NCBI RefSeq assembly: GCF_000153925.1
Contig: NZ_DS264345.1
Span: 124,001-188,000, forward strand
Direction: 5' to 3'
Origin: [Ruminococcus] torques ATCC 27756
GTDB lineage: Bacteria > Bacillota > Clostridia > Lachnospirales > Lachnospiraceae
DNA length: 64,000 nt
The position numbers and the translations under genes are program-made. Shown in pieces: positions 8,434-28,127 of this stretch. Numbering within the stretch: position 1 is the stretch's first letter; every line of letters begins with the position of its first letter. Below the pieces are notes generated by a model that was not told where the DNA came from, did no database searches, and saw only the letters and a program-made list of their open reading frames with translations.

Positions 8434-9018
8434 TCAAGTATAAGTCTTGACAATTTCTTCGGCAATGGATCGCTTTGGAATACAGCGATCCATTGCCTGT
8501 TTTTCTATGTAGCGGTGAGCTTCCGGTTCACTCATAGAAAGTTCACTGATCAAAAACCATTTCGCTTTGTTGACCAGACGGATTTCCGCCATTTTTTCCT
8601 CGATGGATAAAGATTTCTTTTCAAGCTGCCTTAAACGCTCGCGGGAACTTTCCATCCAGCTTAACGCCTGAAGGAGGGTCGGTTTTGAAGTTGGCTTTGG
8701 AAGTGTAAACACTCCATATTCGGCAACCTTGTCATGAATATCAGAGTGAATATCCCGTTTTACTAAAAGCAGAACGGCGATCTGTCTGGAGGAACAAAGG
8801 TCGATCGCAAAACGAACGCCGATATCATCAGACAGAGGAGAATTGATAATGACAAAATCGAAAGACTTTTCTTTTAACATTCGTTTCGCTGCGCTGACAC
8901 TTGAAGCCGTAAGAACAGGATAATACCGGATTTCAGGAAGAGAGCCGATAAAGGCAGAGGCAAAACTGTCTGTCGAAGATACAACAAGAATACTGTATGT
9001 ACGCTCTTTTAGACTCAT
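8434..9018 (-). CDS. ANTAR-domain antiterminator with degenerate receiver domain
   Basis: A 194-residue regulator at the end of the glutamate synthase operon. The C-terminal 55 residues match ANTAR, the RNA-binding three-helix domain that prevents premature termination: a basic AKWFLI helix, SMSEPEAHRYIEKQAMD and a final IAEEIV helix. A coiled-coil linker (about 125-145) precedes it. The N-terminal domain has the receiver fold, but the first acidic pair is replaced by SST and the usual phospho-acceptor Asp after the third strand reads IIN, so classical phosphorylation is unlikely. AAAGGAGA lies upstream of the ATG. It follows glnA by 33 bases. By analogy with NasR/NasT/EutV it should act on leader RNA; a nitrogen-gene target is inferred from position. 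Confidence 0.85.
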   Translation of the reverse strand: MSLKERTYSILVVSSTDSFASAFIGSLPEIRYYPVLTASSVSAAKRMLKEKSFDFVIINSPLSDDIGVRFAIDLCSSRQIAVLLLVKRDIHSDIHDKVAEYGVFTLPKPTSKPTLLQALSWMESSRERLRQLEKKSLSIEEKMAEIRLVNKAKWFLISELSMSEPEAHRYIEKQAMDRCIPKRSIAEEIVKTYT

Positions 9019-9051
9019 TTTATGCTCTCCTTTCTTTGGAACTCGTATAAA

Positions 9052-10263
9052 TTACTGTTTGCAATAAATGTTTAAGATCGCGTCAGGTATATATTTCTTG
9101 ATAAAAGAACTGTTTGCGGCAAGAAAACAGGCTGTTTTAAAGTCTTTCGGAAGTTGGCCAAAGCGCGCAAGCGTATCTTTATCAGCCCGATACAGATTGA
9201 TATCGGCAGGAGCGGGGAGCTCTGTTTTATTACGGATTCCGTCGAGGACCGCGTAAATGATCAAGGCAAACGCCAGGTAGGTGTTGGTGGACGGATCAGG
9301 AGAACGAAGCTCTACGCGCTGATATTCGCCCAGCGCCGCGGGAACACGGACGAGCTGGGAACGGTTCTCTTTTGACCAAGAGATGTAGAGCGGCGCTTTA
9401 TTTTGTCCAAAACGTTCATAGGAATTTTCAAGCGGATTCAAAAAAAGAGTCATCTCCGAGATTTTATCCAGAATACCGGCAATTACAGCGTCCATATAAT
9501 TAAATTCGCGATCGGATTTGACGGAAATGTTAATATGAAAACCATTGCCGGGCTGATCACGAAGGGGTTTTGGGGAAAAATCGGCACAGAGACCGTTTCT
9601 TAACGCAACAGCTTTAACTACAGTCTGAAAAGTCAAGGCGTTATCGGCCGCCGTCATAGGGTCGGAGTAGCGAAAATCGATCTCATTTTGCCCCGGTCCT
9701 TGTTCGTGGTGGGAACTTTCGGGATGAATGCCCATTTGTTCAAGAGTCAGACAGATCTCTCGTCTGATATTTTCACCTTTGTCTTCCGGAGCGATATCCA
9801 TATATCCGGCATGATCATATGGGATCATGGTAGGTTCGCCAAAGTCGTCTGACCGGAAAAGATAGAATTCCTGTTCCGTACCAAAAGAAAATTGCAATCC
9901 CTCTTCAGAGGCTGCTTTAATGGCTTTTTCCAGAAGCGCACGGGAATCATACTCAAAAGGCGTGCCGTCTTGATGCGTGATATGACAGAACATCCGAACT
10001 ACACTGCCTTCTTCCGGTCTCCAGGGAAGAGGCATCAAAGTATCCGGTTCTGGATGAAGAAATAGATCTGAATGAGTCTCATCACCAAATCCATCGATGG
10101 CGGACGCGTCAATGGCGATACCGTAAGAAAAGGCTCTTTGAAGCTCATCAGGCATGATGGATATGTTTTTCTGTTTTCCGAAAACGTCGCAGAAAGCCAG
10201 ACGGATAAACTTAACGTCCTCTTCCTGAACATACTGTATAATTTCTTGCTGGGAATATTTCAT
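9052..10263 (-). CDS. glnA: Glutamine synthetase, type I-like, short C terminus
   Basis: A 403-residue GS-I family protein that should make glutamine from glutamate, ammonia and ATP. The catalytic landmarks are present: DASAIDGF and ETHSDLFLHPE in the Asp50-type loop, EQEFYLF, GPGQNEIDFR, GNGFHIN, NPLENSYERF, WSKENRS and ELRSPDPSTNTYLAF. Common GS-I proteins are 440-470 residues; this one stops soon after the ADINLY region and lacks the last 30-40 residues, which carry the helical arm that ties the two hexamer rings in classical enzymes. It follows the GXGXG subunit by 20 bases and has GAGGTGG before the ATG. It may be a functional second enzyme beside GS-III or a specialised paralogue. Confidence 0.9.
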   Translation of the reverse strand: MKYSQQEIIQYVQEEDVKFIRLAFCDVFGKQKNISIMPDELQRAFSYGIAIDASAIDGFGDETHSDLFLHPEPDTLMPLPWRPEEGSVVRMFCHITHQDGTPFEYDSRALLEKAIKAASEEGLQFSFGTEQEFYLFRSDDFGEPTMIPYDHAGYMDIAPEDKGENIRREICLTLEQMGIHPESSHHEQGPGQNEIDFRYSDPMTAADNALTFQTVVKAVALRNGLCADFSPKPLRDQPGNGFHINISVKSDREFNYMDAVIAGILDKISEMTLFLNPLENSYERFGQNKAPLYISWSKENRSQLVRVPAALGEYQRVELRSPDPSTNTYLAFALIIYAVLDGIRNKTELPAPADINLYRADKDTLARFGQLPKDFKTACFLAANSSFIKKYIPDAILNIYCKQ

Positions 10264-10283
10264 AGTCTTCCACCTCTTTCACG

Positions 10284-11006
10284 TTAATTTGCTACATACA
10301 TCTGTTTATACGGATTCTTGCTGTTCGGGGTGACAAGAGTAAAAGGAGAGGAGAGAATGGTTTTCAGGTCATAGTGAAAATCGCTGCAATATTCCTTCAG
10401 ATCATCCATGATTCCCTGCAAGTCTTCAAAAGAAGCAATATCTGCCGTCACCTGCGGAGGAAATTTCAGATTCCTGCAGTCGCCCCGCAGAAACAGCTTT
10501 CCGCCGTGCATACCGGTACAGGGGAAATTGCCGATGATCGGATGATGATCTTCCTGTAATCCTAATACAATCAGAATCCCTCCGGCCTGATATTCCCCCA
10601 GAAAACTGCCGGCGCATCCTCCGATAATCATTATCGGAACTTTCTTTTTATATTCTTTCATATGAATGCCCGCCCGGTAGCCGGCATGGTCGCGAACATA
10701 AATTTTACCGCCTCTCATAGCGTATCCGGCCGCATCTCCGGCGCTGCCATGAATCAAAATCTTTCCTGCGTTCATCGTATCGCCTACGGCGTCCTGCGCA
10801 TTTGCGTTTACGGTAATAGAGGCGTTATTTAGGTAGGCGCCGAGAGCATTGCCGGAAATTCCATTGACGGTAATATTCCGGTCAGACATTCCGGCGCCGA
10901 TAAAGCGCTGTCCGCAGCAGCCTTCGATCACATAATCGTGTTCCGGCTGCCGAAGGACTTCGTTTAAAGTTTTATAATCTAGTGCAGCAGCATCTATCAC
11001 TTTCAT
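10284..11006 (-). CDS. Glutamate synthase GXGXG-domain subunit (GltB C-terminal domain as a separate protein)
   Basis: A 240-residue protein made of the right-handed beta-helix that forms the C-terminal domain of the large glutamate synthase chain. Repeating Gly-rich turns (GAGMSDRN, GNALGAYL, GSAGDAAGYAM, GGCAGSFLGEY) are visible along its length. In single-chain GltB this domain is structural and supports the ammonia tunnel; here it is an independent subunit, as in archaeal-type enzymes. An ATG four codons upstream (11018) touches the AAGGAG itself, so the ATG at 11006 is preferred. It is 36 bases after the FMN subunit and 20 bases before glnA, clearly in one operon. Confidence 0.9.
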   Translation of the reverse strand: MKVIDAAALDYKTLNEVLRQPEHDYVIEGCCGQRFIGAGMSDRNITVNGISGNALGAYLNNASITVNANAQDAVGDTMNAGKILIHGSAGDAAGYAMRGGKIYVRDHAGYRAGIHMKEYKKKVPIMIIGGCAGSFLGEYQAGGILIVLGLQEDHHPIIGNFPCTGMHGGKLFLRGDCRNLKFPPQVTADIASFEDLQGIMDDLKEYCSDFHYDLKTILSSPFTLVTPNSKNPYKQMYVAN

Positions 11007-11042
11007 AGTATAACACATCTCCTTGATAAAATGATATTGTTT

Positions 11043-12548
11043 TTATTCTCCGGCATGGGAAATGCCAAGTATTTCAAGTTCTTTTTCGTTTAGCCCGATT
11101 CCGCGGAGCATAAGACGGTTGCCCCGGAGAGCTTCGATGGAGTTAATTCCCATACCTCCCATAAGTTCTTTGATTTCATGTTTCCAGGCAGTCATCAGAT
11201 TGATAAGCCGACGGCTTCCCGTCTGCGGATCAAGTCTTTCCACAAGTTCAGGATTCTGCGTGGCGATCCCCCAGTTACACTTGCCGCTTTGACACGTGCG
11301 GCAGAGATGACACCCAAGAGCCAGAAGCGCGGCTGTTGCAACATAACAGGCGTCCGCTCCAAGGGCTACTGCTTTTACCACATCGGAAGCGCTGCGGATA
11401 CTGCCGCCTGCTACGAGCGAAACGTGATTTCGGATTCCTTCATCACGAAGCCTCTGATCCACTGCCGCCAGAGCGAGCTCTACAGGGATTCCCACATTGT
11501 CGCGTATTCTGGTAGGAGCGGCGCCGGTGCCTCCGCGGAAGCCGTCGATAGCGATAATGTCCGCGCCGCTGCGTGCAATTCCGCTGGCGATGGCTGCGAT
11601 ATTATGGACAGCCGCCACTTTTACGATAATCGGTTTTTTGTATTCCGTAGCCTCTTTCAGAGAACAGACCAGCTGCCGCAGATCTTCAATAGAATAGATA
11701 TCATGATGAGGCGCGGGGGAGATGGCGTCAGAGCCTTCAGGGATCATTCTGGTGCGGGACACGTCTCCTACAATTTTAGTTCCCGGAAGATGCCCTCCGA
11801 TTCCCGGTTTTGCGCCCTGTCCCATTTTGATCTCAATGCCGGCGCCGGCGTTTAAATATTTTTCATGAACGCCAAAGCGTCCTGACGCTACCTGTACAAT
11901 GGTGTTTTCTCCATAGCAATAAAAATCTTCATGGAGACCACCTTCTCCTGTATTATATAAAATCCCAAGCTCTTTTGCAGCGAGAGCCAGTGATTTGTGC
12001 GCATTATAACTGATAGAGCCATAGCTCATGGCGGAGAACATGACCGGCATAGAGAGTTCCAGCTGCGGGGGAAGCTCACAGTCTAAAGAACCGTCCGCCA
12101 TCCGATGCACTTGTTCCGGTTTCTTTCCAAGATAAATCCGGGTTTCCATAGGCTCTCTTAGAGGGTCGATGGGAGGGTTGGTTACTTGCGAAGCATTGAT
12201 TAAGATGCGATCCCAATAAACGGGAAGAGGATTTGGGTTTCCCATGGAAGAGAGCAGGACTCCGCCGCTGTTTGCCTGTTTATAAATTTCTTTCATCATA
12301 TTTTCCGGCCAGTTGGCATTTTCGCGTAGAGAACAGTCGCTCTTTACGATTTTTAAAGCTCTGGTGGGACAAAAGGAAACACATCTTTGGCAGTTTACAC
12401 AGTTGCTTTCGTCACATACCATCTGTTTGGTTTCACTATTGTAGGAATGTACGCCATTGGCGCATTGCTGCTGGCAGATACGGCAGGTAATGCAGCGGTT
12501 TTCATTTCGGATCACTTCAAACTCAGGGTAGATAAATTCAATGCTCAT
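11043..12548 (-). CDS. Glutamate synthase FMN-binding synthase subunit with N-terminal ferredoxin domain
   Basis: A 501-residue catalytic subunit that should reductively combine 2-oxoglutarate with ammonia from the amidotransferase partner. Residues 15-70 hold two cysteine clusters, CITCRICQQQC and CVNCQRCVSFC, of an 8-Fe ferredoxin module. The rest is the FMN barrel, with GAGAGIEIKMGQGAKPG, GHLPG, DGFRGGTGAAPT and AGGSIRSASDVVKA. A further CHLCRTCQSGKC segment near residue 420 marks the cluster next to FMN. This architecture is the archaeal-type enzyme, which takes electrons from ferredoxin or a small partner rather than a GltD-like flavoprotein; none is encoded nearby. The ATG overlaps the stop of the preceding gene as ATGA. 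Confidence 0.93.
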   Translation of the reverse strand: MSIEFIYPEFEVIRNENRCITCRICQQQCANGVHSYNSETKQMVCDESNCVNCQRCVSFCPTRALKIVKSDCSLRENANWPENMMKEIYKQANSGGVLLSSMGNPNPLPVYWDRILINASQVTNPPIDPLREPMETRIYLGKKPEQVHRMADGSLDCELPPQLELSMPVMFSAMSYGSISYNAHKSLALAAKELGILYNTGEGGLHEDFYCYGENTIVQVASGRFGVHEKYLNAGAGIEIKMGQGAKPGIGGHLPGTKIVGDVSRTRMIPEGSDAISPAPHHDIYSIEDLRQLVCSLKEATEYKKPIIVKVAAVHNIAAIASGIARSGADIIAIDGFRGGTGAAPTRIRDNVGIPVELALAAVDQRLRDEGIRNHVSLVAGGSIRSASDVVKAVALGADACYVATAALLALGCHLCRTCQSGKCNWGIATQNPELVERLDPQTGSRRLINLMTAWKHEIKELMGGMGINSIEALRGNRLMLRGIGLNEKELEILGISHAGE

Positions 12549-13642
12549 AATAAAACACCTTCCTTTACTGTTACGATAACCGGTTCTCCGCCGGCGGGAG
12601 CCCAGATATTTTCGGCATCCGGTTCCATGGCTCGGATGGCTGTTTCTTCACTGGCAATATAAACCATATCTTTTTTTTCTCCTACGACCATGGAGCGGAG
12701 CTTCAGCCGGTCATTGAGCGCCATAAGCCCTCCGTTGAAACCGAAAACAATGGAGAAAGGTCCGGTGATCAGAAGGCTGGGGAACAGAGTTCGTAAGTAA
12801 GTGTGCTTTTTCTGATCTGCAAGATCTGTTTTTGCTGCAATGGTGCTCCAAAAGGGGGCGGCAATTACGCTGGCAGCTTCTCCAAGAGTCAGATTCTGCC
12901 TGCGGAGCAGATAGTCTAAAATATACGTGATGACTTCCGTATCCGTCTGAAGGGTACACTTATATCCAAACATTTCCATAAAACGGCGGTTGGCATCATA
13001 GGAAGAAATTTCACCGTTATGTACAACGGAAGAATCCAGAAGAGCAAAGGGGTGAGCTCCGCCCCACCAGCCCGGAGTATTGGTAGGATAGCGGCCGTGG
13101 GCAGTCCAGGAATATCCCTCGTATTCGTCTAATTTATAGAAAATACCGATGTCTTCCGGGTATCCCACTGCTTTGAAAGTTCCCATGTTTTTGCCGCTGG
13201 AAAAGACATAAGCTCCCGGCATCTCCGTATTGATCTTCATGACTGTACGTACCACATATTCCTTTTCATCCAGCTGCATAGACGTCAGAAGAGACTTCAA
13301 AGGAGCTACAAAGTATCTCCAGATGATAGGCTCATCTGTGATCAGAGGCGTTTTTCTTGTGGGGATAATTTCTGACTGTACGATCTCAAACCGTTCTTTT
13401 AAAAACGCCTCGCATCCTTTTCTGGCAGCTCTGCTGTCAAAAAACATATGAAAGGCATAAAAGTCTTTATATTCCGGATAGATTCCATAACCGGCAAATC
13501 CGCCGCCAAGACCATTGGATCGGTCATGCATGGGTTTCATAGCATTTGTGATCGTTTCCCCGGACATTTTATTCCCGTCTCTGGAAATCATAGCTGCGAT
13601 GGCACATCCTGAAGGAATCCTTACCTGACCTTCTGTTTTCAT
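12545..13642 (-). CDS. Glutamate synthase class II glutamine amidotransferase subunit
   Basis: A 365-residue Ntn-type amidotransferase that should hydrolyse glutamine and pass ammonia to the FMN subunit. Family features are GYGIYPEYKD, GRYPTNTPGWWGGAHPF, HNGEISSYDANRRF and TDTEVITYILD. The candidate nucleophile is Cys13 in PSGCAIAAM rather than Cys2, so either a 12-residue propeptide is removed or the start is misjudged. A TTG reading from 13687 would run through the leader hairpin and is rejected; ATG 13642 with AAAGGA upstream is preferred, ATG 13654 is possible. It is first in the five-gene operon and overlaps the next gene by 4 bases. Confidence 0.9.
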   Translation of the reverse strand: MKTEGQVRIPSGCAIAAMISRDGNKMSGETITNAMKPMHDRSNGLGGGFAGYGIYPEYKDFYAFHMFFDSRAARKGCEAFLKERFEIVQSEIIPTRKTPLITDEPIIWRYFVAPLKSLLTSMQLDEKEYVVRTVMKINTEMPGAYVFSSGKNMGTFKAVGYPEDIGIFYKLDEYEGYSWTAHGRYPTNTPGWWGGAHPFALLDSSVVHNGEISSYDANRRFMEMFGYKCTLQTDTEVITYILDYLLRRQNLTLGEAASVIAAPFWSTIAAKTDLADQKKHTYLRTLFPSLLITGPFSIVFGFNGGLMALNDRLKLRSMVVGEKKDMVYIASEETAIRAMEPDAENIWAPAGGEPVIVTVKEGVLL

Positions 13643-13679
13643 TTTCCATTTCATTCCTTTCTTTTTGATCTTATACAAT

Positions 13680-13738
13680 AAAAACAAAGACGCTCATTTT
13701 GAAAGCAGAAAAATTCTGATTCCTAAATGAACGCCTTT
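13680..13738 (-). terminator. Terminator-like hairpin in the leader of the glutamate synthase operon
   Basis: Read on the minus strand, AAAGGCGTTCATTT pairs with AAATGAGCGTCTTT over 14 positions, with two G-U pairs, followed by GTTTTTA. It begins about 7 bases after the predicted transcript start, so termination here would yield only a roughly 60-base RNA. A small CAGAA/TTCTG hairpin sits in its loop. Its GCGTCTTT arm is also present in the divergent glnN leader. Confidence 0.75.
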
Positions 13739-13751
13739 GCTCATATGCATA

Positions 13752-13780
13752 CTTATACAACGATTAGGAATGTTTGTCAA
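13752..13780 (-). promoter_or_regulatory. Promoter of the glutamate synthase-glnA-ANTAR operon
   Basis: On the minus strand TTGACA (13780-13775) is followed after exactly 17 bases by TATAAG (13757-13752), a near-consensus vegetative promoter. The predicted start near 13745 places the leader hairpin almost at +1. Confidence 0.8.
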
Positions 13781-13912
13781 TCATAATTTGATTGAGTTTT
13801 TGCAGAACGATGCGCGGATTCCTTTATCTTTCTTATTTCATATGTGTTTCCGTAAGTGGTTTTCGCAGGCTGAACGGTTATAATTGTACTTGTAAAAATA
13901 CAAAAAAAGGAA

Positions 13913-13942
13913 TTGACAAAGAGGTTTGTCCGGTGTTATCAT
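13913..13942 (+). promoter_or_regulatory. Promoter of the glnN operon
   Basis: TTGACA at 13913-13918 is followed after 18 bases by TATCAT at 13937-13942. The predicted start near 13949-13951 lies immediately before the first leader hairpin. The 130 bases between this and the divergent promoter are A/T-rich and show no clear operator. Confidence 0.75.
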
Positions 13943-13951
13943 GCAACACGT

Positions 13952-13996
13952 AAAGGCAAGGGCGTCTTTGAGAACACAATCTCAGAGACGCTTTTT
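13952..13996 (+). terminator. First leader hairpin upstream of glnN
   Basis: GCGTCTTTGAGA (13962-13973) pairs with TCTCAGAGACGC (13980-13991) over 12 positions with one G-U pair, closing a six-base loop ACACAA, followed by TTTTT. This has the form of an intrinsic terminator placed about 10 bases after transcription starts. Its 5' flank carries the direct repeat AAAGGCAAGGGCGTCTTT (13952-13969). Confidence 0.75.
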
Positions 13997-14022
13997 CCGT
14001 TGTTGCAAAGAAACAGATAGAA

Positions 14023-14076
14023 AAAGGCAAGGGCGTCTTTCATGTGGATAGCAGGAAAGGCATCCTTGTCTTTTTT
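14023..14076 (+). terminator. Second leader hairpin upstream of glnN
   Basis: A second exact copy of AAAGGCAAGGGCGTCTTT (14023-14040) begins a stem in which 14026-14041 pairs with 14055-14070, with three G-U pairs and one C-A mismatch, followed by TTTTTT. It ends about 20 bases before the glnN ATG. Because both 5' arms are identical, arm 1 can pair with 3' arm 2 and arm 2 with 3' arm 1, so alternative folds are possible. Confidence 0.72.
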
Positions 14077-14096
14077 CGTGCGAAAGGAGTGTCGTT

Positions 14097-16199
14097 ATGA
14101 AGAAGAAAAATGTTTCCAAATATTTTGGCTGTATGGTGTTTGATGACAGGGTTATGAAGGCAAGTTTATCTTCAAAAGTATATCAGTCATTGAGAAAAAC
14201 CATTGATGAAGGTGAACAATTAGACAGCAGCGTAGCAGACGTTGTGGCAGAAGCTATGAAAGAATGGGCTGTATCGAAAGGCGCAACACATTACACACAC
14301 TGGTTTCAGCCGCTGACCGGAATCACAGCAGAAAAACATGACAGCTTTATTTCTCCTTCTCCAAACGGAGGCGTTATCATGGAATTTTCGGGTAAGGAAC
14401 TGATCAAAGGAGAGCCGGATGCCTCTTCCTTCCCTTCCGGAGGTTTAAGAGCTACCTTTGAGGCAAGAGGATATACCACATGGGATCCGACTTCCTATGC
14501 GTTTATTAAAGGAAAAACCTTATGTATTCCCACAGCTTTTTGTTCTTATGGAGGAGAAGCGTTGGACAAGAAAACGCCGCTGCTTCGTTCCATGAAGGCA
14601 TTGAATAAGCAGGCGCTTCGGATTCTCCGTCTGTTCGGCAATGAAAAGGTATCATACGTTATTACTTCTGTAGGACCGGAACAAGAATACTTCCTGATTA
14701 CAAAAGAAATGTATGATCAAAGAAAAGATCTTCAATTTACAGGACGCACTTTATTTGGAGCAAGACCTCCGAAAGGACAGGAGATGGATGACCATTATTT
14801 CGGTGTGATCAAGCCAAGAGTAGAGGCTTACATGGCGGACTTAAATGAGGAACTCTGGAAGCTTGGAATCCTTGCAAAGACACAGCACAATGAAGTGGCT
14901 CCGGCACAGCATGAGCTGGCGCCGATCTACACAACGACCAACATTGCTACGGATCACAACCAGCTGACGATGGAAATCATGCAAAAAGTAGCCGCACGGC
15001 ATGGATTGGTTTGTCTTCTTCATGAGAAACCGTTTGCAGGAGTGAATGGAAGCGGAAAACATAATAACTGGTCCATCTCCACTGATACAGGCGTAAACCT
15101 GCTGTCGCCGGGAGAAACACCTTATGAGAATGCGCAGTTTTTACTGTTTCTGTGCGCAGTGATCAAAGCGGTGGATGATTATCAGGATCTGCTGAGGCTG
15201 TCTGTTGCAACCGCAGGAAACGATCATCGTCTGGGAGCAAATGAAGCGCCGCCGGCTGTTGTGTCCATGTTTCTGGGCGATGAGCTGAACGGAGTCTTAG
15301 AGGCGATTGAAAAAGATATTCCTTATGAAGGAGCGGAAAAAACACAGATGAAGCTGGGTGTGGATGTCCTTCCGAAATTCAATCGGGATACTACGGACAG
15401 AAACCGTACTTCACCTTTTGCTTTCACAGGAAATAAGTTTGAATTCCGTATGTTGGGATCTTCCAACAGTATCGCATGCGCCAACATGATGCTTAACAGC
15501 GCAGTGGCGGAAAGCCTGAAGATCTATGCGGACAGACTGGAAAAAGCAGAGAATTTTGAAGAAACCCTTCATGCCATGATCCGCAAGACGATCAAAGATC
15601 ACAAGAGGATTATTTTCAATGGAAACGGTTATGACGATGCATGGATAAAAGAAGCAACGGAAAAGCGCGGACTGATGAACTATCCGTCAACGCCGGACTG
15701 TATGCCGCATCTGCTGGATGAAAAAAATGTCAGGATGCTTACTTCACATAAAGTATTCTCCAAGGCGGAACTGGAATCAAGATGCGAGATTATGCTGGAA
15801 AACTACTGTAAGACGATCGTAATAGAAGCAAATACTATGGTGGATATGGTTAAAAGAGAGATCATTCCGGCTGTGGAAGCCTACGCAATGGAACTGGCAA
15901 GGACAGCTTCTGCGAAGAAACGTGTCGATGAGACATTGGCATGCCGTTATGAAAGCGGCCTGATAAAAAAACTCTCTACACTTACAGACCAGATGGCAGT
16001 CAGGACGGATGCATTGGAAACAGCTCTGATAGAACTTCAGGACGTGAAGGATATTGTGGCGCAGTCTTATCAGATCCGGGATACAGTATTGACCAGAATG
16101 CAGGAGTTACGAATTGCCTGTGATGAAGCGGAAACCGTTACAGCAAAAAAATACTGGCCGTTCCCAACCTACGGGGATCTGCTTTTCAGCGTAAAATAG
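14097..16199 (+). CDS. glnN: Glutamine synthetase type III
   Basis: A 700-residue GS-III, the large dodecameric glutamine synthetase of Bacteroides and Clostridia. Family signatures include WFQPLTG followed by EKHDSF near residues 80-95, [70 protein letters not shown] and [18 protein letters not shown]. Length matches the usual 690-730. AAAGGAG at 14083-14089 is 7 bases before the ATG. It is the first gene after the double-hairpin leader, and an amt-PII gene follows after 28 bases. Opposite to it lies an operon with a GS-I gene, so the organism has two unrelated glutamine synthetases controlled from one intergenic region. Confidence 0.97.
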
Positions 16200-16227: not shown

Positions 16228-17940
16228 ATGTACAGTTCTGTAAATACAATCTGGGTATTATTTGGCACAGCTCTGGTCTTCTTTATGCAGGCAGGTTTTT
16301 CCTTGTGTGAAGCGGGATTTACAAGAGCGAAAAACACCGGAAATATTCTGATGAAAAACCTGATGGATTTCTGCATTGGAACACCGGCATTCTGGCTGGT
16401 AGGATTCGGACTGATGTTTGGAAAAGGTTCCGGAATCATTGGCAGCTTTGACCCGCTGATCCGGGGCGAGTACAGCCAGGCGCTTCCTTCAGGCGTTCCT
16501 CTGTGGGCGTTTGCGATCTTCCAGACTGTCTTTTGTGCGACATCCGCCACGATTGTGTCAGGAGCAATGGCAGAGAGAACAAAATTCAGCGCTTACTGTA
16601 TTTATTCTGCAGCGATCTCACTTCTGATCTATCCGGTTTCTGGCCACTGGATCTGGGGAGGAGGATGGCTTTCCCAGATGGGATTCCATGATTTTGCAGG
16701 ATCTACAGCCGTACATATGGTAGGAGGCATCTGCGCTATGATCGGTGCGAAAATCTTAGGTCCGCGTATTGGAAAATACGATAAAAACGGAAAACCGCAG
16801 GCGATTTTAGGGCATAACCTTACATTTGCAGCGCTTGGCGTCTTTATCCTCTGGTTCTGCTGGTTTGGATTTAACGGAGCTTCTACGGTAGGTATGGACA
16901 GTGATGCCCTGATAGAAACAGCGGGAAGGGTATTCTTTAATACTAACCTGGCAGCTGCTGTCGCCTGCTGCGCGGCTTTGATTTTCACCTGGATACGTTA
17001 CAAGAAACCGGATGTCTCTATGACTTACAATGCAGCATTGGCAGGTCTGGTAGGCATTACAGCGGGCTGCGATGCGGTAGATGCGGTCGGCGCGGCGGTC
17101 ATTGGAGTTGTCTGTGGAATCCTGATTGTACTGGCGATAGAATTTTTTGATAAAATTGCAAAAATAGACGACCCTGTAGGCGCTGTTTCCGTACACTGTG
17201 TCTGCGGCGCTGCAGGAACGGTTCTGACCGGTCTGTTTGCCACAGGGGAGACTACAGAGGCAGGACTTTTCTATGGAGGCGGCGCGCACTTTCTGGGAAT
17301 CCAGGTATTAGGCGTGCTTGCTGTAGCAGCGTATGTTGCGGTGGTTATCACCATTGTATTTTTAGCAATTAAACATACCATCGGGCTGCGTGTAAAACCG
17401 GAAGAAGAGCTTGCCGGATTGGATGTTTCGGAACATGGACTGTTTACCGCATATGCCGGATTTTCTATGCTGCCGGACACCATTGCGGAGGATGTGGACA
17501 CCAATACGGTCTTTGCCATGGGAGATGTGCCGGAAGCTGAAGCTGTACCGGTGAAGACGGTTCCTGCATTTGAAGAAGGAACGCCGAAATTCACGAAGGT
17601 GGAAATTGTCTGCAAGGAATCAAAGCTTGAGGCATTAAAAGCGGCAATGATGAATCTGGGAATTACAGGCATGACCGTATCGCACGTTCTTGGATGCGGC
17701 GTACAGAAAGGAAAACCGGAGTATTACCGCGGCGTACAGATTGAGGCAAACCTGCTTCCGAAAATCCAGGTAGAAATCGTGGTGAGCAAAGTTCCTGTCC
17801 GCAGTGTTATCGAAACGGCTAAGAAAGTGCTTTATACAGGACATATCGGAGACGGTAAGATTTTCGTTTATGATGTGGAAAATGTTGTAAAAATCAGAAC
17901 CGGTGAAGAGGGCTTTGATGCTCTGCAGGATGTAGAATAA
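16228..17940 (+). CDS. amt: Ammonium transporter fused to a C-terminal PII signalling domain
   Basis: A 570-residue fusion. Residues 1 to about 395 are an Amt/MEP channel with eleven predicted membrane segments, EAGFTRAKN, the FNGAST segment and conserved pore histidines (AVHMVGG, VHCVCGA). After an acidic linker of about 55 residues, residues 456-560 form a complete PII domain that starts TKVEIVCKESKLEALK. It carries the T-loop tyrosine motif EYYRG near residue 497, the C-terminal YTGHIGDGKIFVYDVE segment and RTGEEG. PII normally plugs Amt as a separate trimer (AmtB-GlnK); covalent attachment would make the block intrinsic and ligand-controlled. It follows glnN by 28 bases. Confidence 0.95.
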   Translation: MYSSVNTIWVLFGTALVFFMQAGFSLCEAGFTRAKNTGNILMKNLMDFCIGTPAFWLVGFGLMFGKGSGIIGSFDPLIRGEYSQALPSGVPLWAFAIFQTVFCATSATIVSGAMAERTKFSAYCIYSAAISLLIYPVSGHWIWGGGWLSQMGFHDFAGSTAVHMVGGICAMIGAKILGPRIGKYDKNGKPQAILGHNLTFAALGVFILWFCWFGFNGASTVGMDSDALIETAGRVFFNTNLAAAVACCAALIFTWIRYKKPDVSMTYNAALAGLVGITAGCDAVDAVGAAVIGVVCGILIVLAIEFFDKIAKIDDPVGAVSVHCVCGAAGTVLTGLFATGETTEAGLFYGGGAHFLGIQVLGVLAVAAYVAVVITIVFLAIKHTIGLRVKPEEELAGLDVSEHGLFTAYAGFSMLPDTIAEDVDTNTVFAMGDVPEAEAVPVKTVPAFEEGTPKFTKVEIVCKESKLEALKAAMMNLGITGMTVSHVLGCGVQKGKPEYYRGVQIEANLLPKIQVEIVVSKVPVRSVIETAKKVLYTGHIGDGKIFVYDVENVVKIRTGEEGFDALQDVE

Positions 17941-17985: not shown

Positions 17986-18005
17986 GAAAAATGGAGGTAA
18001 AATGT

Positions 18006-19601: not shown

Positions 19602-21221
<1,620 letters not shown>

Positions 21222-21227: not shown

Positions 21228-22643
21228 ATGGCGATTCATGAAGAATGCGGCGTGTTCGGAATTTTAAGCAGAAAAAGAGAACGTCTTGGGAAACTGGTTT
21301 ATTATGGACTCTATGCACTTCAGCACAGAGGGCAGGAAAGCTGCGGCATTGTTGTAAATGACGATGGCGTCTTTTCGTCGTATAAGGATTTGGGGCTTGT
21401 AAGCGAAGTATTTTCTGAGGATACTCTGGCACATCTTTCGGAAGGAAATATGGCCGTGGGACATGTGCGGTACGGAACGACAGGAAGAAATAATCGAAAG
21501 AATTGTCAGCCTATAGAGGTGAACCATCAGAAAGGGAAAATGGCGCTGGCACATAATGGAAATTTAAGCAATGCGTTAGAGCTTCGTGATAAATTGGAAT
21601 TATCAGGAGCAATTTTCCATACAACCAGCGATACAGAAACGATTGCGTATATGATTACAAGAGAAAGGCTTACTGCGCCTAGTATCGAGGAGGCGGTAAG
21701 CCGCGCCATGACTTCTTTGGAAGGAGCATATTCTCTTATATTAATGTCTTCTGCTAAAATGATCGCAGTGAGAGATCCGTATGGATTCCGTCCCCTTTGT
21801 TACGGGAAAATGCCGGACGGCTCCTATGTGATTGCCTCGGAAAGCTGCGCCCTGACATCTGTAGGCGCGGAACTGATCAGGGATCTTCTTCCGGGAGAGA
21901 TCCTGGTATTTAGCGAAGAAGGCGTCGAGTCGCGCCGGGAACACTGCGGCACGCAGAAACAGAAGACCTGTATATTTGAATATATTTATTTTGCAAGACC
22001 GGACTCTGTCATTGATAAGATCTCTGTATCAGCAGCAAGAATTCAGGCTGGGAAACTATTAGCACAGACAAAACCGGTCAAGGCGGATATTGTAATCGGC
22101 GTTCCGGACAGCGGTCTGGACGCGGCGCTTGGATTTTCTGAAGTTTCAGGAATTCCTTATGGAATCGGACTTGTCAAGAACAAATACATTGGAAGAACTT
22201 TTATATCTCCCGGTCAAAAAGAACGGATCGATCTGGTGCGGATGAAGTTGAGTCCGATCCCATCGGTTATTCAGGGAAAACGAGTAGTTTTAATTGATGA
22301 TTCCATTGTAAGAGGAACTACAAGCAGACAGCTTGTAAGTCTTTTAAGAGAGGCAGGCGCAAAAGAGATCCATCTAAGAATCTCTGCACCTCCGTTTCTG
22401 CATCCGTGTTATTATGGTACAGACATCGATTCGGAAGAAAATCTTATTGCATCCCACCATGGAGAAAAAGAGGTCGCCACGCTCATCGGGGCGGATTCAC
22501 TTGGCTATCTTCCGTTGGAATGCCTTCATGAACTGACAGGAACGCATTCATATTGTGACGCTTGTTTTAGCGGGAAATACGCGACTGAAATTCCCACAGA
22601 TGTCCGAAAGGACCGATTTGAACAAAAATTATCCGAGAGGTGA
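21228..22643 (+). CDS. purF: Amidophosphoribosyltransferase
   Basis: A 471-residue enzyme for the first step of purine synthesis, PRPP plus glutamine to phosphoribosylamine. The start MAIHEECGVFG puts the Ntn nucleophile at Cys7, so a six-residue propeptide should be removed, as known for the Bacillus-type enzyme. Further motifs are LQHRGQESCG, GHVRYGTTG, HNGNLSN and RDPYGFRPL in the amidotransferase half and the PRPP loop VVLIDDSIVRGTTS in the transferase half. Cysteines near residues 241, 389 and 449 could hold the iron-sulphur cluster of this class. It is away from other pur genes and instead sits among glutamine-using genes. Confidence 0.96.
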   Translation: MAIHEECGVFGILSRKRERLGKLVYYGLYALQHRGQESCGIVVNDDGVFSSYKDLGLVSEVFSEDTLAHLSEGNMAVGHVRYGTTGRNNRKNCQPIEVNHQKGKMALAHNGNLSNALELRDKLELSGAIFHTTSDTETIAYMITRERLTAPSIEEAVSRAMTSLEGAYSLILMSSAKMIAVRDPYGFRPLCYGKMPDGSYVIASESCALTSVGAELIRDLLPGEILVFSEEGVESRREHCGTQKQKTCIFEYIYFARPDSVIDKISVSAARIQAGKLLAQTKPVKADIVIGVPDSGLDAALGFSEVSGIPYGIGLVKNKYIGRTFISPGQKERIDLVRMKLSPIPSVIQGKRVVLIDDSIVRGTTSRQLVSLLREAGAKEIHLRISAPPFLHPCYYGTDIDSEENLIASHHGEKEVATLIGADSLGYLPLECLHELTGTHSYCDACFSGKYATEIPTDVRKDRFEQKLSER

Positions 22644-22648
22644 AACAA

Positions 22649-23749
22649 ATGGAAAAATGGAATAAGAAGCTTCTTCTGGAAGACGGAAGTCAATTTTATG
22701 GCTATGGGTTTGGCAGTCAGGAAGAGAAAATAACGGAAATAGTATTTAATACGGCGCCGGTTGGGTATCAGGAGATCCTTTCTGATCCATCCTACACATA
22801 TCAGACCGTTGTTATGGCATATCCGTTGATCGGAAATTACGGGATTGCAAAAGAAGACTTTGAGACAAAACAACCTTCCATCGGCGGGCTTGCCGTGAGA
22901 GATTATAATGATATTCCTTCCAATTTCCGCAGCGCCGCCACGCTGGACGAGGTGATGAAACAGTATCATATTCCCGGTATTTACGGCATTGATACGAGAA
23001 AACTGGTAAGAAAGATCCGGGATTTCGGAAGTTGTAAGGCGCTGCTTACAGATGCGCAGACATCGCCGGAAGAAGGATTGAAAAAACTGGCAGGATTTGA
23101 GATTCCGAAAGATGCCGTAGAAAAGGTCAGTTCTAAAGAAATAAGATACTGTGCCGCCAAACAGGAAAATTATCTTGTGGCGGCCATTGATTGCGGAATA
23201 AAAGAAAATATTATACGAAGTTTAAATGCAAGAGGCTGCAGCGTCATGGTATATCCATGGAACACTTCTTATGAAGAAATTCAAAAACAAAACCCGGACG
23301 GCGTCTTTTTGTCTAATGGACCGGGCAATCCGAAGGATGTAAAGCCGGTTCTGGAACTGGTACGGAAAATAAGAGGAAACTTTCCATTATTTGGAATATG
23401 CCTTGGACATCAGATGATCGGGCTTGCCTATGGCGCGGGGACTTATAAGTTGAAATTCGGACACCGGGGAGGAAACCATCCGGTAAAAAACTTAAAAACC
23501 GGGAAAATAGAAATCACGTCCCAGAATCATTCTTATGCTGTAGATTATGCCAGTCTGAAAAATACCGATCTGGAGATGACCCATATCAATCTGCTGGATC
23601 ATACAGTAGAAGGAATTGCCTGCAGAAAAGATCATGTTTTCAGCGTCCAGTATCATCCGGAAAGCGCTCCCGGACCTCAGGACAGCGGGTATTTGTTTGA
23701 TCAATTTATACAGATGATGGAGGAAAACAAACATGGCAAAGCGAACTGA
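22649..23749 (+). CDS. carA: Carbamoyl-phosphate synthase small (glutaminase) subunit
   Basis: A 366-residue glutaminase subunit that feeds ammonia to CarB. The first half carries the CarA-specific domain ([44 protein letters not shown]). The class I amidotransferase half carries the nucleophile in GICLGHQ, the supporting QNHSYAV and the His-Glu pair in [16 protein letters not shown] at 22635-22640 is 8 bases before ATG 22649; a GTG at 22640 overlaps that site and is rejected. It overlaps carB by 17 bases. Confidence 0.96.
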
Positions 23750-26700
23750 TATAAAGAAAATACTGGTTATTGGTTCTGGTCCTATTGTAATCGGACAGGC
23801 AGCGGAATTTGATTATGCGGGAACACAGGCATGTCTTGCGCTGAAAGAAGAGGGGTATGAAGTAATCCTGTGCAATTCCAATCCGGCGACTATAATGACA
23901 GACCCTGCCATTGCAGATAAAGTTTATATGGAGCCTCTTACATTGGAATATATGGCAAAAATCGTCCGCCATGAGCGTCCGGACGCCATAGTACCCGGAA
24001 TCGGAGGGCAGACAGGACTGAATCTTGCAATGCAGCTCGAGAAAAAAGGAGTTTTGAAAGAATGTCAGACAGAACTGCTTGGAACTGGAAGTGAAAGCAT
24101 CCGGCAGGCAGAAGACAGAGAACTGTTTAAAGAATTGTGCGAAAAATTAGGAGAACCGGTACTGCCGTCCCTTGTCGCCAATACAGCAGAAGAAGCCCTT
24201 CAGGCGGCAAAGACCATCGGTTATCCGGTAGTTCTGCGTCCGGCTTTTACTCTGGGCGGAACCGGGGGAGGGTTTGCAGACGATGAACAGGAATTTCTGG
24301 GGCTTATTCATAATGCGCTTGCCTTGTCGCCGGTTCATCAGGTATTGGTTGAAAAAAGCATTAAAGGTTTTAAAGAAATTGAATATGAAGTCATTCGTGA
24401 TTCTAATGATACGGCAATTACGGTGTGCAACATGGAAAATCTGGATCCGGTAGGAATCCATACAGGAGATTCGATCGTAGTCTGCCCATCCCAAACCTTG
24501 ACGAATAAGGAATACCAGATGCTGCGAGACAGTGCGCTAAGGCTGATCCGGGCTCTTAGGGTGGAAGGGGGATGCAATGTACAGTTCGCACTGGATCCTC
24601 ATTCTTTCCGGTACTACGTTATCGAAGTGAACCCACGTGTTTCCCGTTCTTCTGCACTGGCGTCAAAAGCAAGCGGATATCCCATTGCCAGAGTGTCTGC
24701 AAAAATCAGCGTAGGTATGACTCTGGACGAGATCCCCCTTGTAAACACCCCTGCTTCCTTTGAGCCTGCCTTAGATTATGTAGTAACGAAAATGCCTCGT
24801 TTTCCGTTTGATAAGTTTGCAGATGCCAATCAAAAGTTAGGCACGCAGATGAAAGCGACCGGAGAGGTGATGAGCATTGGACGAACATTTGAAGAAAGTC
24901 TGTTAAAGGCGATCCGTTCCCTGGAAACGGGAGTATTTCATCTATATATGGAGAAATTCGATGAAAAGACAAGGGAAGAGCTTCTTTCCTATATAAAAGC
25001 AGGAACGGACGACAGGATCTTTGCCGTTGCACAATTATTAAGACTTGGCTGCAATGTTCAGCAAATTGCTTTTGAAACAAAGATTGACGGCTTTTTCCTG
25101 GAAAAAATGAAGAAAATCATAGAAATGGAAAATATGTTAAAAGCAAATCCATGGAACAGGGACGTCCTGCATGAGGCAAAAAGAGGAGGATTTTCCGATC
25201 GCGCTGTGGCATGGCTCTGGAATACAGACGAAGATACTGTCTTTCGCATTAGAAAAGAAATGCATCTGTTCCCGGTTTATAAAATGATCGACACCTGCGC
25301 TTCTGAATTTGACAGTTATGTCCCTTATTTTTATTCTACTTACGAAGAAGAAAACGAATCGATAGCAGAGGACAGAAAAAAAATTCTGGTGCTTGGATCA
25401 GGTCCTATCCGAATCGGTCAGGGCGTAGAGTTTGATTATTCGACAGTTCATGCCGTAAAAACAATACGCAATGCCGGATATGAGGCCATTGTGATCAACA
25501 ATAATCCGGAAACAGTTTCTACGGATTATACGACTTCCGATAAGCTGTATTTTGAACCTCTCTGTGTCGAAGACGTGATGAACGTAATTGAACTGGAGCG
25601 GCCGGATGGCGTAATCGCCTCGCTGGGAGGGCAGACTGCCGTGAATCTGGCAGAGCCTCTGGAATCCAGAGGCGTAACGATCATCGGAACAGACTGCGAG
25701 GCGATCGAAAAGGCAGAGAACAGGGAGTCCTTTGAGAAGCTTTTGGCCGCGCTTTCTATTCCGCAGCCCAAAGGTCAGGCTGTAACGAATATTGAAGATG
25801 GTGTAAAGGCGGCAGCTGCAATAGGCTATCCTGTGCTGGTACGTCCGAGCTTTGTATTAGGCGGAAGAGCCATGCAGATCGTGGCAAAAGAAGAACAACT
25901 GCGGCAATATCTGAAAACGGCGGTGGAGATCAATGAAGAAAAACCGGTATTAGTGGATCATTATATCAGAGGAAAAGAAGTGGAGATCGACGGAATCTGC
26001 GACGGTCAGGATGTATTTGTGCCCGGCATCATGGAACTGGTGGAGAGAACCGGCGTACATTCCGGCGATTCCATCAGTGTGTATCCGAGTTACAGCATTT
26101 CAGACCATGTAAAAGAAGTGATTCTGGATTATACAAGAAGATTAGGTCTTGGAATCGGAATCAGAGGATTGTTTAATATTCAGTTTATTGTGGATCAGGA
26201 GGAAAACGTGTATATTATAGAAGTAAATCCACGCTCATCCAGAACCGTTCCGTTTTTATCAAAAGCCACAGGTTATTCTCTGGCGGATATTGCGACAAGA
26301 GTGATTCTTGGCATCAGCCTGAAAGAGCAGGGCATCGACACATGTTATCCGGAAGAAAAGAGTTTCTGGTATGTAAAAGCGCCCGCGTTTTCTTTTGCTA
26401 AGTTAAATGGAATGGATGCGTATCTGTCCCCTGAGATGAAATCAACAGGAGAAGCCATAGGATACGATCGAAAATTTCCTCGAGCCATGTATAAAGCCTT
26501 AATCGCTTCCGGTGTGAAAATGCAGAACTACGGAACGGTCATGGTAACTCTGGCTGATGAAGATAAAGAAGAGGCGCTGCCTCTTATTCGACGGTTTTAT
26601 GAAATGGGATTCAATATAGAGGCAACAGTCGGAACCGGAGAGTTTCTGAAAGCGCATGGGATTCGCACTCGTATCCGCAGAAAGCTTAGTGAAAACAGCA

Positions 26701-26912
26701 CCGAAATTCTGGAAGCGATAAGATCCGGCTATGTAAGCTATGTCATTAACACAAGAGCCATTTTATCCGGCGTTCATTATGAAGACGGACTGGCGATCAG
26801 AAGGACAGCCATCGAAAACAACGTAACGATGTTTACCTCTTTGGATACCGTAAAGGTACTTCTGGACGTGCTGGAAGAAATTACCATAGGTGTTTCGCCT
26901 CTTTACGCATAA
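23733..26912 (+). CDS. carB: Carbamoyl-phosphate synthase large subunit
   Basis: A 1059-residue enzyme that makes carbamoyl phosphate for pyrimidine and arginine synthesis. It has the two homologous halves expected: [18 protein letters not shown] at the start and [18 protein letters not shown] near residue 553, each followed by an ATP-grasp domain ([12 protein letters not shown] and [11 protein letters not shown]) and IEVNPR motifs. The C-terminal 140 residues form the MGS-like allosteric domain. The start overlaps carA by 17 bases. dapL follows after 24 bases. The length is typical of Gram-positive CarB. Confidence 0.97.
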
Positions 26913-26936
26913 AAACAAAAAAAGGAGAACTGCAGA

Positions 26937-28127
26937 ATGATACCAAATATGAATTATCAAAATTTAAAAGAATCTTATTTGTTTTATAATATCGCCCAGA
27001 AAACAAAAGCTTATCTGGAAGCACATCCGGGAGCGCATCTCTATAGAATGGGAATTGGCGACGTTTCTCTGCCGCTTTGCGATGCCGTTATCCAAAAACT
27101 TCATGAGGCAGTAGAAGATCAGGCTCATAAAACAACCTTTCATGGATATATGCCGGAATGCGGAGATACGGAACTTCGGACAACCATTGCGGCATACTAT
27201 CAAAAAAGAGGAGTAAAATTAAGCCATGAGGAAGTCTTTGTCTCCAGCGGGGCAAGTGATGAGCTGGGAGATATTTTGGATTTGTTCGGAAAAGAAAAGA
27301 CAGTGCTGATCATGGAACCGGCTTATCCTGCTTATGTGGATGCGAACGTGATTGCCGGAAACACGATTATCCATATTCCGGCGGGAGAAGAGAACGGATT
27401 TGTTCCTGTGCCGGATCCGGACATTGCGGCAGACGTGATCTACATCTGCTCTCCGAATAATCCAACCGGCGCTGTATTTGACCGGGAGGCATTACAGGCA
27501 TGGGTGGATTATGCCAACAAAATGAATGCCATCATCCTGTTTGATGCCGCATATGAGGCATTTATTGAAGAAGATGACATCCCCCACAGTATTTTTGAAA
27601 TCCCGGAAGCGAGAACCTGTGCCATTGAAATTTGCTCTTTGTCTAAGACCGCGGGCTTTACAGGAACACGCTGCGGATATACAGTCATTCCAAAAGAACT
27701 GTTTCGCGGCGGAATGAGTCTGAACCAGATGTGGGTAAGAAACCGGACGACGAAAACAAACGGTGTATCTTATCTTATCCAAAAAGGAGCTTCGGCTGTA
27801 TTTACGGAAGAAGGACAGCGGCAGATTCGGGAGGGGATTCAAATCTATAAAAAGAATGGAAGATGTCTGACGGAAGTACTGGATCGGCTCGGCATCTGGT
27901 ACTGCGGAGGGAAAAACGCTCCTTATATTTGGATGAAATGCCCGAATGGAATGGGAAGCTGGGAGTTTTTTGATTACCTGCTTAATGAAATCCAGGTAGT
28001 GGGAACGCCCGGAGAAGGGTTTGGAGCGTGCGGCGAGGGATATTTCCGTTTCTCTACTTTCGGGTCGCCGGAAGATACGAAAGAGGCGGCTGGAAGGCTG
28101 GAACTGCTTCTTCAGAAACTGCTTTGA
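26937..28127 (+). CDS. dapL: LL-diaminopimelate aminotransferase-like PLP enzyme
   Basis: A 396-residue class I/II aminotransferase. LYRMGIGDVSLPL and the PLP-lysine segment SLSKTAGFTGTRCGY closely resemble DapL, which transfers an amino group from glutamate to tetrahydrodipicolinate to give LL-diaminopimelate for lysine and peptidoglycan. CSPNNPTGAVFDR is the usual cofactor-site segment. It follows carB by 24 bases with AAAGGAG upstream, so it is probably the last gene of the glutamine operon, consistent with glutamate as donor. The assignment among close aminotransferase families is good but not certain. Confidence 0.88.
   Translation: MIPNMNYQNLKESYLFYNIAQKTKAYLEAHPGAHLYRMGIGDVSLPLCDAVIQKLHEAVEDQAHKTTFHGYMPECGDTELRTTIAAYYQKRGVKLSHEEVFVSSGASDELGDILDLFGKEKTVLIMEPAYPAYVDANVIAGNTIIHIPAGEENGFVPVPDPDIAADVIYICSPNNPTGAVFDREALQAWVDYANKMNAIILFDAAYEAFIEEDDIPHSIFEIPEARTCAIEICSLSKTAGFTGTRCGYTVIPKELFRGGMSLNQMWVRNRTTKTNGVSYLIQKGASAVFTEEGQRQIREGIQIYKKNGRCLTEVLDRLGIWYCGGKNAPYIWMKCPNGMGSWEFFDYLLNEIQVVGTPGEGFGACGEGYFRFSTFGSPEDTKEAAGRLELLLQKLL

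Follow-up and report, generated by a model that had tools for sequence, protein, structure and literature searches.

The window analyzed here, a stretch of 64,000 nucleotides from [Ruminococcus] torques ATCC 27756 (Lachnospiraceae), contains two divergent operons of genes for making and using glutamine, hereafter the hub: glnN, a fused ammonium transporter and PII gene (amt), asnB, pyrG, purF, carA, carB and dapL on the plus strand, and the three glutamate synthase chains (gltB), a glutamine synthetase (GS) homologue (glnA) and a gene for an ANTAR protein (antar) on the minus strand (Table 1). Judged from the sequence, the two operons very probably make up a complete ANTAR regulon that governs glutamine supply and demand. 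In the 409-base divergent region, two promoters and three terminators were found, and in both leaders an ANTAR-type hexaloop overlaps an intrinsic terminator, one such element standing before gltB and two in tandem before glnN. The initial annotation had proposed, from gene order and orientation, that these genes are grouped by shared substrate and that glutamine supply and demand are jointly controlled; the mechanism of control, an ANTAR hexaloop-terminator, is outside its account.

All three six-base loops have A at position 1 and G at position 4, described as the signature of ANTAR targets (PMC3369936; PMC3369931). In the known ANTAR systems treated in the same papers, binding of the protein to the hairpin excludes the terminator. 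In the hub, the 3' arm of the hexaloop is part of the terminator, and according to the predicted pairing the hexaloop and the terminator of the gltB leader are mutually exclusive. In the whole genome of 2.7 Mb on 41 contigs, no ANTAR gene was detected other than this one, the last of the minus operon.

From 75 hairpin sequences, three of them from this locus, a covariance model with 22 columns (R1) was built; from the 81 distinct hexaloop sequences, five doubtful ones (one resembling a ribosome-binding site) and, by oversight, one more were left out. As site selection had required a stem and followed an A2/C-closing rule, pair counts and loop consensus are biased in favour of the motif. The R1 scan of the whole genome, in which 150 of the 1256 first-look candidates were scored, yielded three strong sites, none of them outside the divergent intergenic region (31.0, 30.9 and 28.6 bits; E 5.5e-6, 6.0e-6 and 3.7e-5), followed by a next-best match at 18.8 bits (E 0.0875). 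Rebuilding R1 without the hub sites changed their scores by 0.2-0.3 bits. With one ANTAR protein and one bidirectional control region in the genome, the hub is the whole predicted regulon of this protein. None of the 16 weaker R1 matches in the genome stands before a hub-type gene, except L135, which lies antisense inside the same leader; two of them (L125 and L133) have terminator-like sequence and adjoin genes without assignment. On both strands at the third GS gene of the genome, there was one hexaloop with an all-A/T stem, unlike the motif, and no R1 site in the genome scan. In a Lachnospiraceae sample of 150 genomes, one per genus, R1 matched 126 at E<=0.1, a loose threshold that was not used as evidence, and none of the R1 matches in three genomes lacking an ANTAR gene (G020, G087, G129) had a terminator score of at least 18.

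The leader arrangement recurs in related loci. A set of 111 loci (L009-L119) was picked for AsnB alone, 31 from the sampled family genomes and 80 named, many of them ended early by contig ends; L011 and L082 represent one contig, long identical stretches recur among some of the others, and removal of seven near-duplicates left 104. Mediterraneibacter is among the named sources of close AsnB matches. A hexaloop with a terminator was found in 52 of 69 glnN leaders and 31 of 42 gltB1 leaders, the hub included (48/64 and 30/40 without near-duplicates), and hexaloops stand in tandem in 23 glnN leaders (21 without near-duplicates). In an unfiltered test, 74 of 111 leaders had a promoter of the form TTGAC-16..18-TAnnnT; a hairpin with a six-base loop and a stem of at least 5, no more than 45 nt after the -10 box, was present in 64 of these 74, and 43 of the 64 carry A1 and G4, against 1.3 per set of shuffled segments. 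The stem differs by gene, being AAAGGC/GTCTTT before glnN, AAATGAGC/GTTCATTT before gltB1, and AAAGC/GCTTT in other lineages. Stem covariation amounted to 64 cells changed on both sides versus 17.6 in shuffles, among sites preselected for stems. Altogether 265 sites of at least 18 bits were found in the hub and 171 fetched loci, and a terminator follows 220 of them (203 of 247 without near-duplicates), versus 39 of 3000 random positions.

Genes downstream of such sites were named by blastp against a reference set built from the hub and the fetched loci, and ten assignments were checked by NCBIfam, which confirmed examples of gdhA, purC, purA, guaA, dapF, gltB, carA, dapL and pyrG; for the glnQ-type ATPase example, GlnQ was the best match, under the cut-off. 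In the hub and the AsnB-chosen loci, which are rich in hub-type genes from the outset, the 175 terminator-bearing sites of at least 20 bits precede glnN (74), gltB1 (33), gdhA (14), asnB (11), glnA (11), purC (10), purA (5), pyrG (3), purF (2), full-length gltB (2), dapL (1) and dapF (1), eight being without gene assignment, five of these without an open reading frame (ORF) in range. In loci chosen by R1 matches (L198-L257), there were 38 terminator-bearing sites: 15 before glnN, seven before gltB, two each before gdhA, amt, glnA and asnB, one each before pyrG, purF, carA, guaA, dapL and a glnQ-type ATPase gene, and two unassigned; of the 27 terminator-less sites, 25 are unassigned, one precedes glnA and one a glnQ-like gene. 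A class-wide test used the motif alone: 37 of 148 genomes matched at E<=0.001, and 29 loci were scanned at 22 bits or more. Seventeen sites with a terminator were found, three of them in further genomes of the hub's own family, and 14 precede known nitrogen genes (glnN 6, gltB1 2, gdhA 2, and purC, asnB, amt and full gltB one each); the remainder comprises two before a single gatD-like gene (NCBIfam GatD 210.8 bits, under the cut-off of 450) and one without an ORF in range. All but one of the 17 terminator-less sites of this test lack an assigned gene; the exception, slightly below the terminator cut-off, stands before a gene matching glnQ at 30% over 96 residues.

Thus, the hexaloop-terminator is found elsewhere in Clostridia directly before glnN, gltB, gdhA, amt, glnA, asnB, pyrG, purF, purC, purA, guaA, carA, dapL and the gatD-like gene, which points to a conserved ANTAR regulon in this class. 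The products of gatD, guaA, purF, pyrG, carA and asnB use glutamine amide. Grouping by shared substrate therefore holds at the level of regulation, as the same element precedes glutamine-amide-using genes in relatives, and joint control is supported at the sequence level by its presence before supply genes and, in relatives, demand genes. In three loci (L063, L096, L111), gdhA stands before glnN, each with its own hexaloop-terminator, so that ANTAR sites also occur within a gene row, besides its start.

Gene order itself is kept in part. Upstream of asnB, on the same strand and within the fetched flank, glnN was found in 65 of 111 loci (60 of 104 without near-duplicates) and amt in 61 (55); downstream are pyrG in 62 (58), purF in 50 (47), carA in 37 (36), carB in 28 (28) and dapL in 23 (22), pyrG, purF and carA occurring together in 27 (26). 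Divergent gltB1 accompanies asnB in 32/111 loci (30/104) and divergent antar in 22/111 (21/104). Comparison with relatives had been named in the initial annotation as a check, absence of the order from all close relatives being the outcome that would speak against it; the order is not absent, and it varies, with purC, purA and gdhA intervening. The AsnB search at E<=1e-50 matched 36 of the 150 family genomes, and the full hub is therefore probably confined to a minority of the family. Another hub order, glnA-amt-asnB-gltB1-gltB2-gltB3-purF, was observed in L060, L064, L066 and L092; these genes share one strand, glnA is preceded by one to three hexaloop sites, and its product is about 40% identical to hub GlnA. 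L074, L085 and L094 are similar and shorter. This gene set seems to have come together on more than one occasion.

The known ANTAR targets described in PMC3369931 have two hexaloops (P1 and P2) 5-12 nt apart. No such dual arrangement was found here: of 113 sites, 8 have a P1-like hairpin in the 40 nt upstream, against 18/113, 7/111 and 2/108 at shifted control positions, i.e., without excess. One P1 candidate, GACAA[AGAGGT]TTGTC at 13915, was rejected, as it overlaps the -35 element and hence falls outside the predicted transcript. In 56 of 64 leaders, 6-16 nt separate the -10 box from the start of the hairpin, which thus lies so close to the predicted RNA start that there is no room for P1. 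According to PMC8934654, EutV contacts one hexaloop at a time, and the minimal motif was redefined as one hexaloop; the same paper (Walshe 2022) calls for more work on the role of single hexaloops in ANTAR function. The regulon is a candidate for a natural single-hexaloop ANTAR case, in which the two tandem hexaloops of glnN may cooperate, gltB having one.

The closest solved chains to the ANTAR protein are 1s8n ("putative antiterminator", which we take to be Rv1626), 1qo0 (AmiR) and 6wsh ("Response regulator", presumably EutV). The phosphorylatable receiver Asp of the EutV/EutW branch is absent: its column holds Asn (Asn59), and the protein thus has, by sequence, a receiver without phospho-Asp, as in the AmiC-AmiR/NasS-NasT class. 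ANTAR genes were found in 131 of the 150 family genomes, three of which have a second match. From the 134 listed matches, 90 loci were fetched down the score list, a few near contig ends being skipped, and three were dropped for want of a full ANTAR ORF. None of the remaining 87 proteins has Asp at the phospho-site (Gly in 60, Asn in 16, Ser in 8, others in three). In one locus, L067, a gltB-type hexaloop lies directly before antar (13973, reverse strand coordinate), with no glnA match beside antar and no terminator detected; here direct autoregulation of antar is possible.

A glnA-family gene stands directly upstream of antar, on the same strand, in 86 of these 87 loci. Hub GlnA, a type I GS (GS-I) homologue of 403 aa, scores 324 bits against the NCBIfam GlnA cut-off of 429, and the flap glutamate (E327) expected of a catalytically normal GS-I is replaced by Lys; the protein may not be an ordinary glutamine synthetase. 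Residue numbers are, we assume, those of the Salmonella enzyme, mapped by motif. Among the 86 ANTAR-linked GlnA proteins, the flap glutamate is lost in 35, and R339 is changed in 21, E212 in 7, E357 in 6, E129 in 4, H269 in 2 and E220 in 1, while E131, R321 and R359 are invariant. All 30 class controls, which are best matches to canonical GlnA and so lean canonical, keep the flap glutamate, 14 of them with an ANTAR gene within 1.5 kb. Of 20 distant GlnA proteins from the class, taken from those at 43-50% identity, all 20 are encoded beside an ANTAR gene, with the flap kept in 13, lost in six and unreadable in one. As type III GS (GSIII) is present in 148 of the 150 family genomes, glutamine can be made without GlnA, and the fact that glnA and antar stay paired as the enzyme degenerates suggests that GlnA is retained for the sake of the regulator. 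Flap loss was also compared with GSIII copy number (18/33 vs 20/15, Fisher p 0.05, uncorrected for kinship; p 0.002 under a stricter loop rule chosen afterwards), and neither value is relied on. By analogy to AmiC, which serves AmiR in this way, we infer that GlnA would be the sensor partner of the ANTAR protein.

The mechanism that we propose is as follows. Both promoters would fire, and RNA polymerase would soon meet an intrinsic terminator, whose 5' arm can form the hexaloop hairpin instead. Free ANTAR protein would bind the hexaloop as it emerges at the 5' end of the transcript, stabilize the hairpin and block the terminator, so that the gltB operon and the glnN-amt-asnB-pyrG-purF-carAB-dapL operon would be read through together, the glnN leader acting as two locks in series. 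Since glnA and antar are within the gltB operon, the circuit would be a positive loop. The ANTAR receiver is not phosphorylatable at the usual Asp, and the probable source of the signal is therefore the GlnA-family protein encoded next to it: at high glutamine, GlnA would hold the ANTAR protein off the RNA, and at low glutamine, release it. RNA binding, antitermination, the GlnA partnership and the sign of the response are all predicted from sequence. In its general form, the proposal is that in Lachnospiraceae and many other Clostridia a GlnA homologue, partly or wholly turned sensor, binds a pseudo-receiver ANTAR protein and withholds it, according to glutamine, from single-hexaloop switches at the 5' ends of transcripts for glutamine supply and for the main glutamine-consuming pathways, as the global nitrogen control of the family; we regard this as an evenly balanced call.

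Several points weigh against the proposal. Hexaloop-terminators were not detected in 17 of 69 glnN and 11 of 42 gltB1 leaders, those missed including gltB1 inside a one-strand row (L060 and the like) and cases with the site before gdhA instead (L087, L107). Stem pairs with a double change show no excess (4 versus 3.8 in shuffles). The AsnB loci include 13 sites for which no terminator was detected, and 10 of these likewise stand before hub-type genes, three being unassigned, so that the terminator rule is an imperfect filter. For EutV, PMC3369931 describes loss of in vivo induction upon deletion of P1 and poorer binding of a lone stem-loop. When homologues from the AsnB loci are added, one of 109 ANTAR proteins does have the phospho-site Asp. 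The flap and all other checked residues are kept in 38 of the 86 ANTAR-linked GlnA proteins, so that GlnA may have remained an enzyme. The response could also have the opposite sign, since raising demand enzymes at low glutamine is not obviously adaptive. In C. thermocellum at pH 6.12, transcripts of the glutamate synthase (GOGAT) genes are described as having fallen, with type I glnA not significantly changed (PMC5887222). Related loci were counted without tree-based correction, and transcript starts are predicted ones.

A signal that does not come from GlnA is a serious possibility, albeit on the doubtful side: the pseudo-receiver would sense a small molecule, or PII/Amt-PII would be its partner, with glnA merely co-transcribed and the regulator controlling its own enzyme operon. 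The Amt-PII fusion encoded in the plus operon speaks for it, as do the 51 of 86 GlnA proteins that keep the flap Glu and the antar gene of L067, an exception to the adjacency argument. However, the adjacency of glnA, near-complete as it is, extends to loci where GlnA has lost the flap or other catalytic residues, and the two genes are linked even where no gltB chain separates glnA from the promoter side (L044, L061, L100, L101, L109, L116). It is unlikely that the flap-less GlnA-like protein is instead a gamma-glutamylamide synthetase for another amine, working with a three-chain glutamate synthase-like complex. Such synthetases are used by N-methylglutamate or polyamine pathways, and three separate GltB chains with a GlnA-like protein presumably resemble mgsABC-gmaS; moreover, most metal and ATP residues persist in spite of the flap loss. 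Yet the protein scores higher with the GlnA model (324 bits) than with those of type III ligase (227) and gamma-glutamylputrescine (174), family searches of the hub ORFs revealed no amine-using gene in the operon, and the diversity of flap changes (D, K, R, G, T, N, others) suggests relaxed constraint, not one new substrate.

Two explanations would dispense with ANTAR control altogether. That the leaders are plain attenuators or terminators, the hexaloop being a by-product of terminator sequence, is highly improbable: the 3' arm does lie in the terminator, so that conservation is partly shared, but the 5' arm of the first glnN hexaloop falls outside the terminator stem, A1 and G4 far exceed their frequency in shuffled segments, and motif with terminator tracks nitrogen genes class-wide. 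That the genes came to be clustered by chance, through the operon history of a single lineage, with no joint regulation, fits the genes intervening in relatives and is hardly to be credited, given that hub genes standing first in a row elsewhere bear the same control element.

All 13 hub genes are present on the strands and at the coordinates given for them, and ORFs, Pfam and NCBIfam gave the expected families, in agreement with the initial annotation as to a hub in two divergent operons. Its assignment of AsnB, PurF, PyrG and CarA as glutamine amidotransferases is borne out by their glutamine-site Cys motifs, and the N-terminal Cys implies that the true asnB start is at about 18006. Two details need correction: the plus operon, for which gaps of 3-66 bases had been given, has spacings of 28, 50, 21, 6, -4, -17 and 24, two of them overlaps, and the GS genes here are not "both" of the genome, which has three, the third being a GSIII gene on another contig. 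For the class-II amidotransferase chain of glutamate synthase, a start at ATG near 13642 or 13654 is likelier than TTG at 13687. The conserved Cys of this chain lies within RIPSGCAIAA, about 12 residues past the likely ATG, in at least 90% of 37 aligned sequences, which would imply a propeptide or an unusual nucleophile position.

Table 1. Genes and leader elements of the glutamine hub (window coordinates).
Feature	Position	Strand	Evidence or remark
ANTAR antiterminator, pseudo-receiver domain	8434..9018	-	Pfam ANTAR 54.9 bits
GlnA-family (GS-I) protein, short, Glu-flap residue -> Lys ("NKAP")	9052..10263	-	
Glutamate synthase GXGXG chain	10284..11018	-	PF01493
Glutamate synthase FMN core chain + 4Fe-4S ferredoxin domain	11043..12548	-	PF01645, Fer4
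Glutamate synthase class-II glutamine amidotransferase (GATase-II) chain	12545..13687	-	PF00310; conserved RIPSGCAIAA
Intrinsic terminator, gltB leader	13683..13741	-	-28.8 kcal/mol for 13683-13746
Single ANTAR hexaloop hairpin ATGAGC[AAAGGC]GTTCAT, gltB leader	13727..13744	-	E 3.7e-5; -4.3 kcal/mol
gltB promoter TTGACA-17-TATAAG	13752..13780	-	by eye; pattern scan rule requires final T
glnN promoter TTGACA-18-TATCAT, extended -10	13913..13942	+	11/12 matches, best of 24 in scan
First ANTAR hexaloop hairpin TAAAGGC[AAGGGC]GTCTTTG, glnN leader	13951..13970	+	E 6.0e-6
First intrinsic terminator, glnN leader	13961..13996	+	-20.3 kcal/mol
Second intrinsic terminator, glnN leader	14022..14076	+	-26.7 kcal/mol
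Second ANTAR hexaloop hairpin AAAGGC[AAGGGC]GTCTTT, glnN leader	14023..14040	+	E 5.5e-6
glnN, type III glutamine synthetase	14097..16199	+	GSIII_N 272.9 bits
Ammonium transporter fused to PII (Amt-PII)	16228..17940	+	Ammonium_transp + P-II
asnB, glutamine-hydrolysing asparagine synthetase	17991..19586	+	NF006949
pyrG, CTP synthase	19608..21221	+	family match
purF	21228..22643	+	family match
carA	22640..23749	+	family match
carB	23733..26912	+	family match
dapL, LL-diaminopimelate aminotransferase (glutamate-using)	26937..28127	+	family match

Pattern scans of the plus strand from the end of dapL to 29394 revealed no terminator for the operon. Between dapL and phoU-phoB-phoR, the translation of 28397-28584 matches the C-terminal part of PstB alone (41 bits, 50 residues), as if it were a remnant, the upstream pst genes having been lost. 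The Rfam scan at the gathering threshold found nothing but 6S RNA (36558-36736; RF00013, 52.7 bits).

The proposed system shares with EutV-type antitermination (Enterococcus faecalis eut; Ramesh 2012, Walshe 2022) the ANTAR protein, the A1/G4 hexaloop, the hairpin that excludes an intrinsic terminator, and several leaders under one regulator. It differs in that one hexaloop, at the predicted start of the transcript, takes the place of the dual P1-P2 motif, and that a pseudo-receiver, with no kinase among the hub genes, replaces the phosphorylated receiver; unlike those of EutV-type systems, its targets are genes of glutamine supply and demand. That ANTAR proteins control nitrogen genes is known, glutamate synthase of Desulfotomaculum being one example mentioned in PMC3369931. 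In AmiC-AmiR and NasS-NasT, the ANTAR regulator is under a ligand-binding partner, the partner in the hub, a GS homologue, being a proposal. AmiC and NasS derive from binding proteins, and the proposed hub partner from the GS family instead. AmiR is described as having a non-phosphorylated pseudo-receiver (PMC3369936), and NasS as releasing NasT upon nitrate or nitrite. A further likeness is to the GS-GlnR circuit of Gram-positives, as outlined in PMC9249791, where the regulator gene is in an operon with GS, and GS reports glutamine status; however, GlnR is a DNA-binding repressor, whereas the hub regulator is a predicted RNA-binding antiterminator and the GS homologue is partly degenerate.

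Another precedent is the Clo1313_2030-2036 cluster of C. thermocellum, where an ANTAR gene adjoins type I glnA and split GOGAT genes with similar expression (PMC4676874; PMC9888227). The ANTAR protein was already proposed there to be an ammonia-sensitive antiterminator, by analogy to nitR of C. acetobutylicum (PMC4676874). As far as the portions of these accounts devoted to the cluster go, a hexaloop target, the pseudo-receiver, a GS-ANTAR partnership and demand genes are not included (PMC4676874; PMC9888227). Deletion of type I glnA in C. thermocellum is summarized in the literature with the words "deregulates nitrogen metabolism". Transcripts for nitrogen assimilation were reportedly raised in that study despite high glutamine, which is expected if GlnA restrains the ANTAR protein. 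Among the titles and abstracts listed at the top of searches in the open-licence literature, none described a regulon of single hexaloops, nucleotide-synthesis targets for it or a pairing of GlnA with ANTAR.

Lachnospiraceae are abundant gut bacteria, and to our knowledge their nitrogen control is poorly known. The present analysis names a likely global nitrogen regulator of the family, its RNA code and its targets, which include entry enzymes of purine, pyrimidine, asparagine and cell-wall synthesis. It proposes a new type of sensor, in which a homologue of glutamine synthetase is the partner of an ANTAR protein, and offers a reading of the nitrogen deregulation that follows type I glnA deletion in C. 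thermocellum. It also bears on the question, left open in the discussion by Walshe 2022, of the degree to which single hexaloops act in ANTAR function. If the proposal is true, nitrogen control throughout the family would be exerted by antitermination, and its leaders would represent a natural class of single-hexaloop ANTAR targets.

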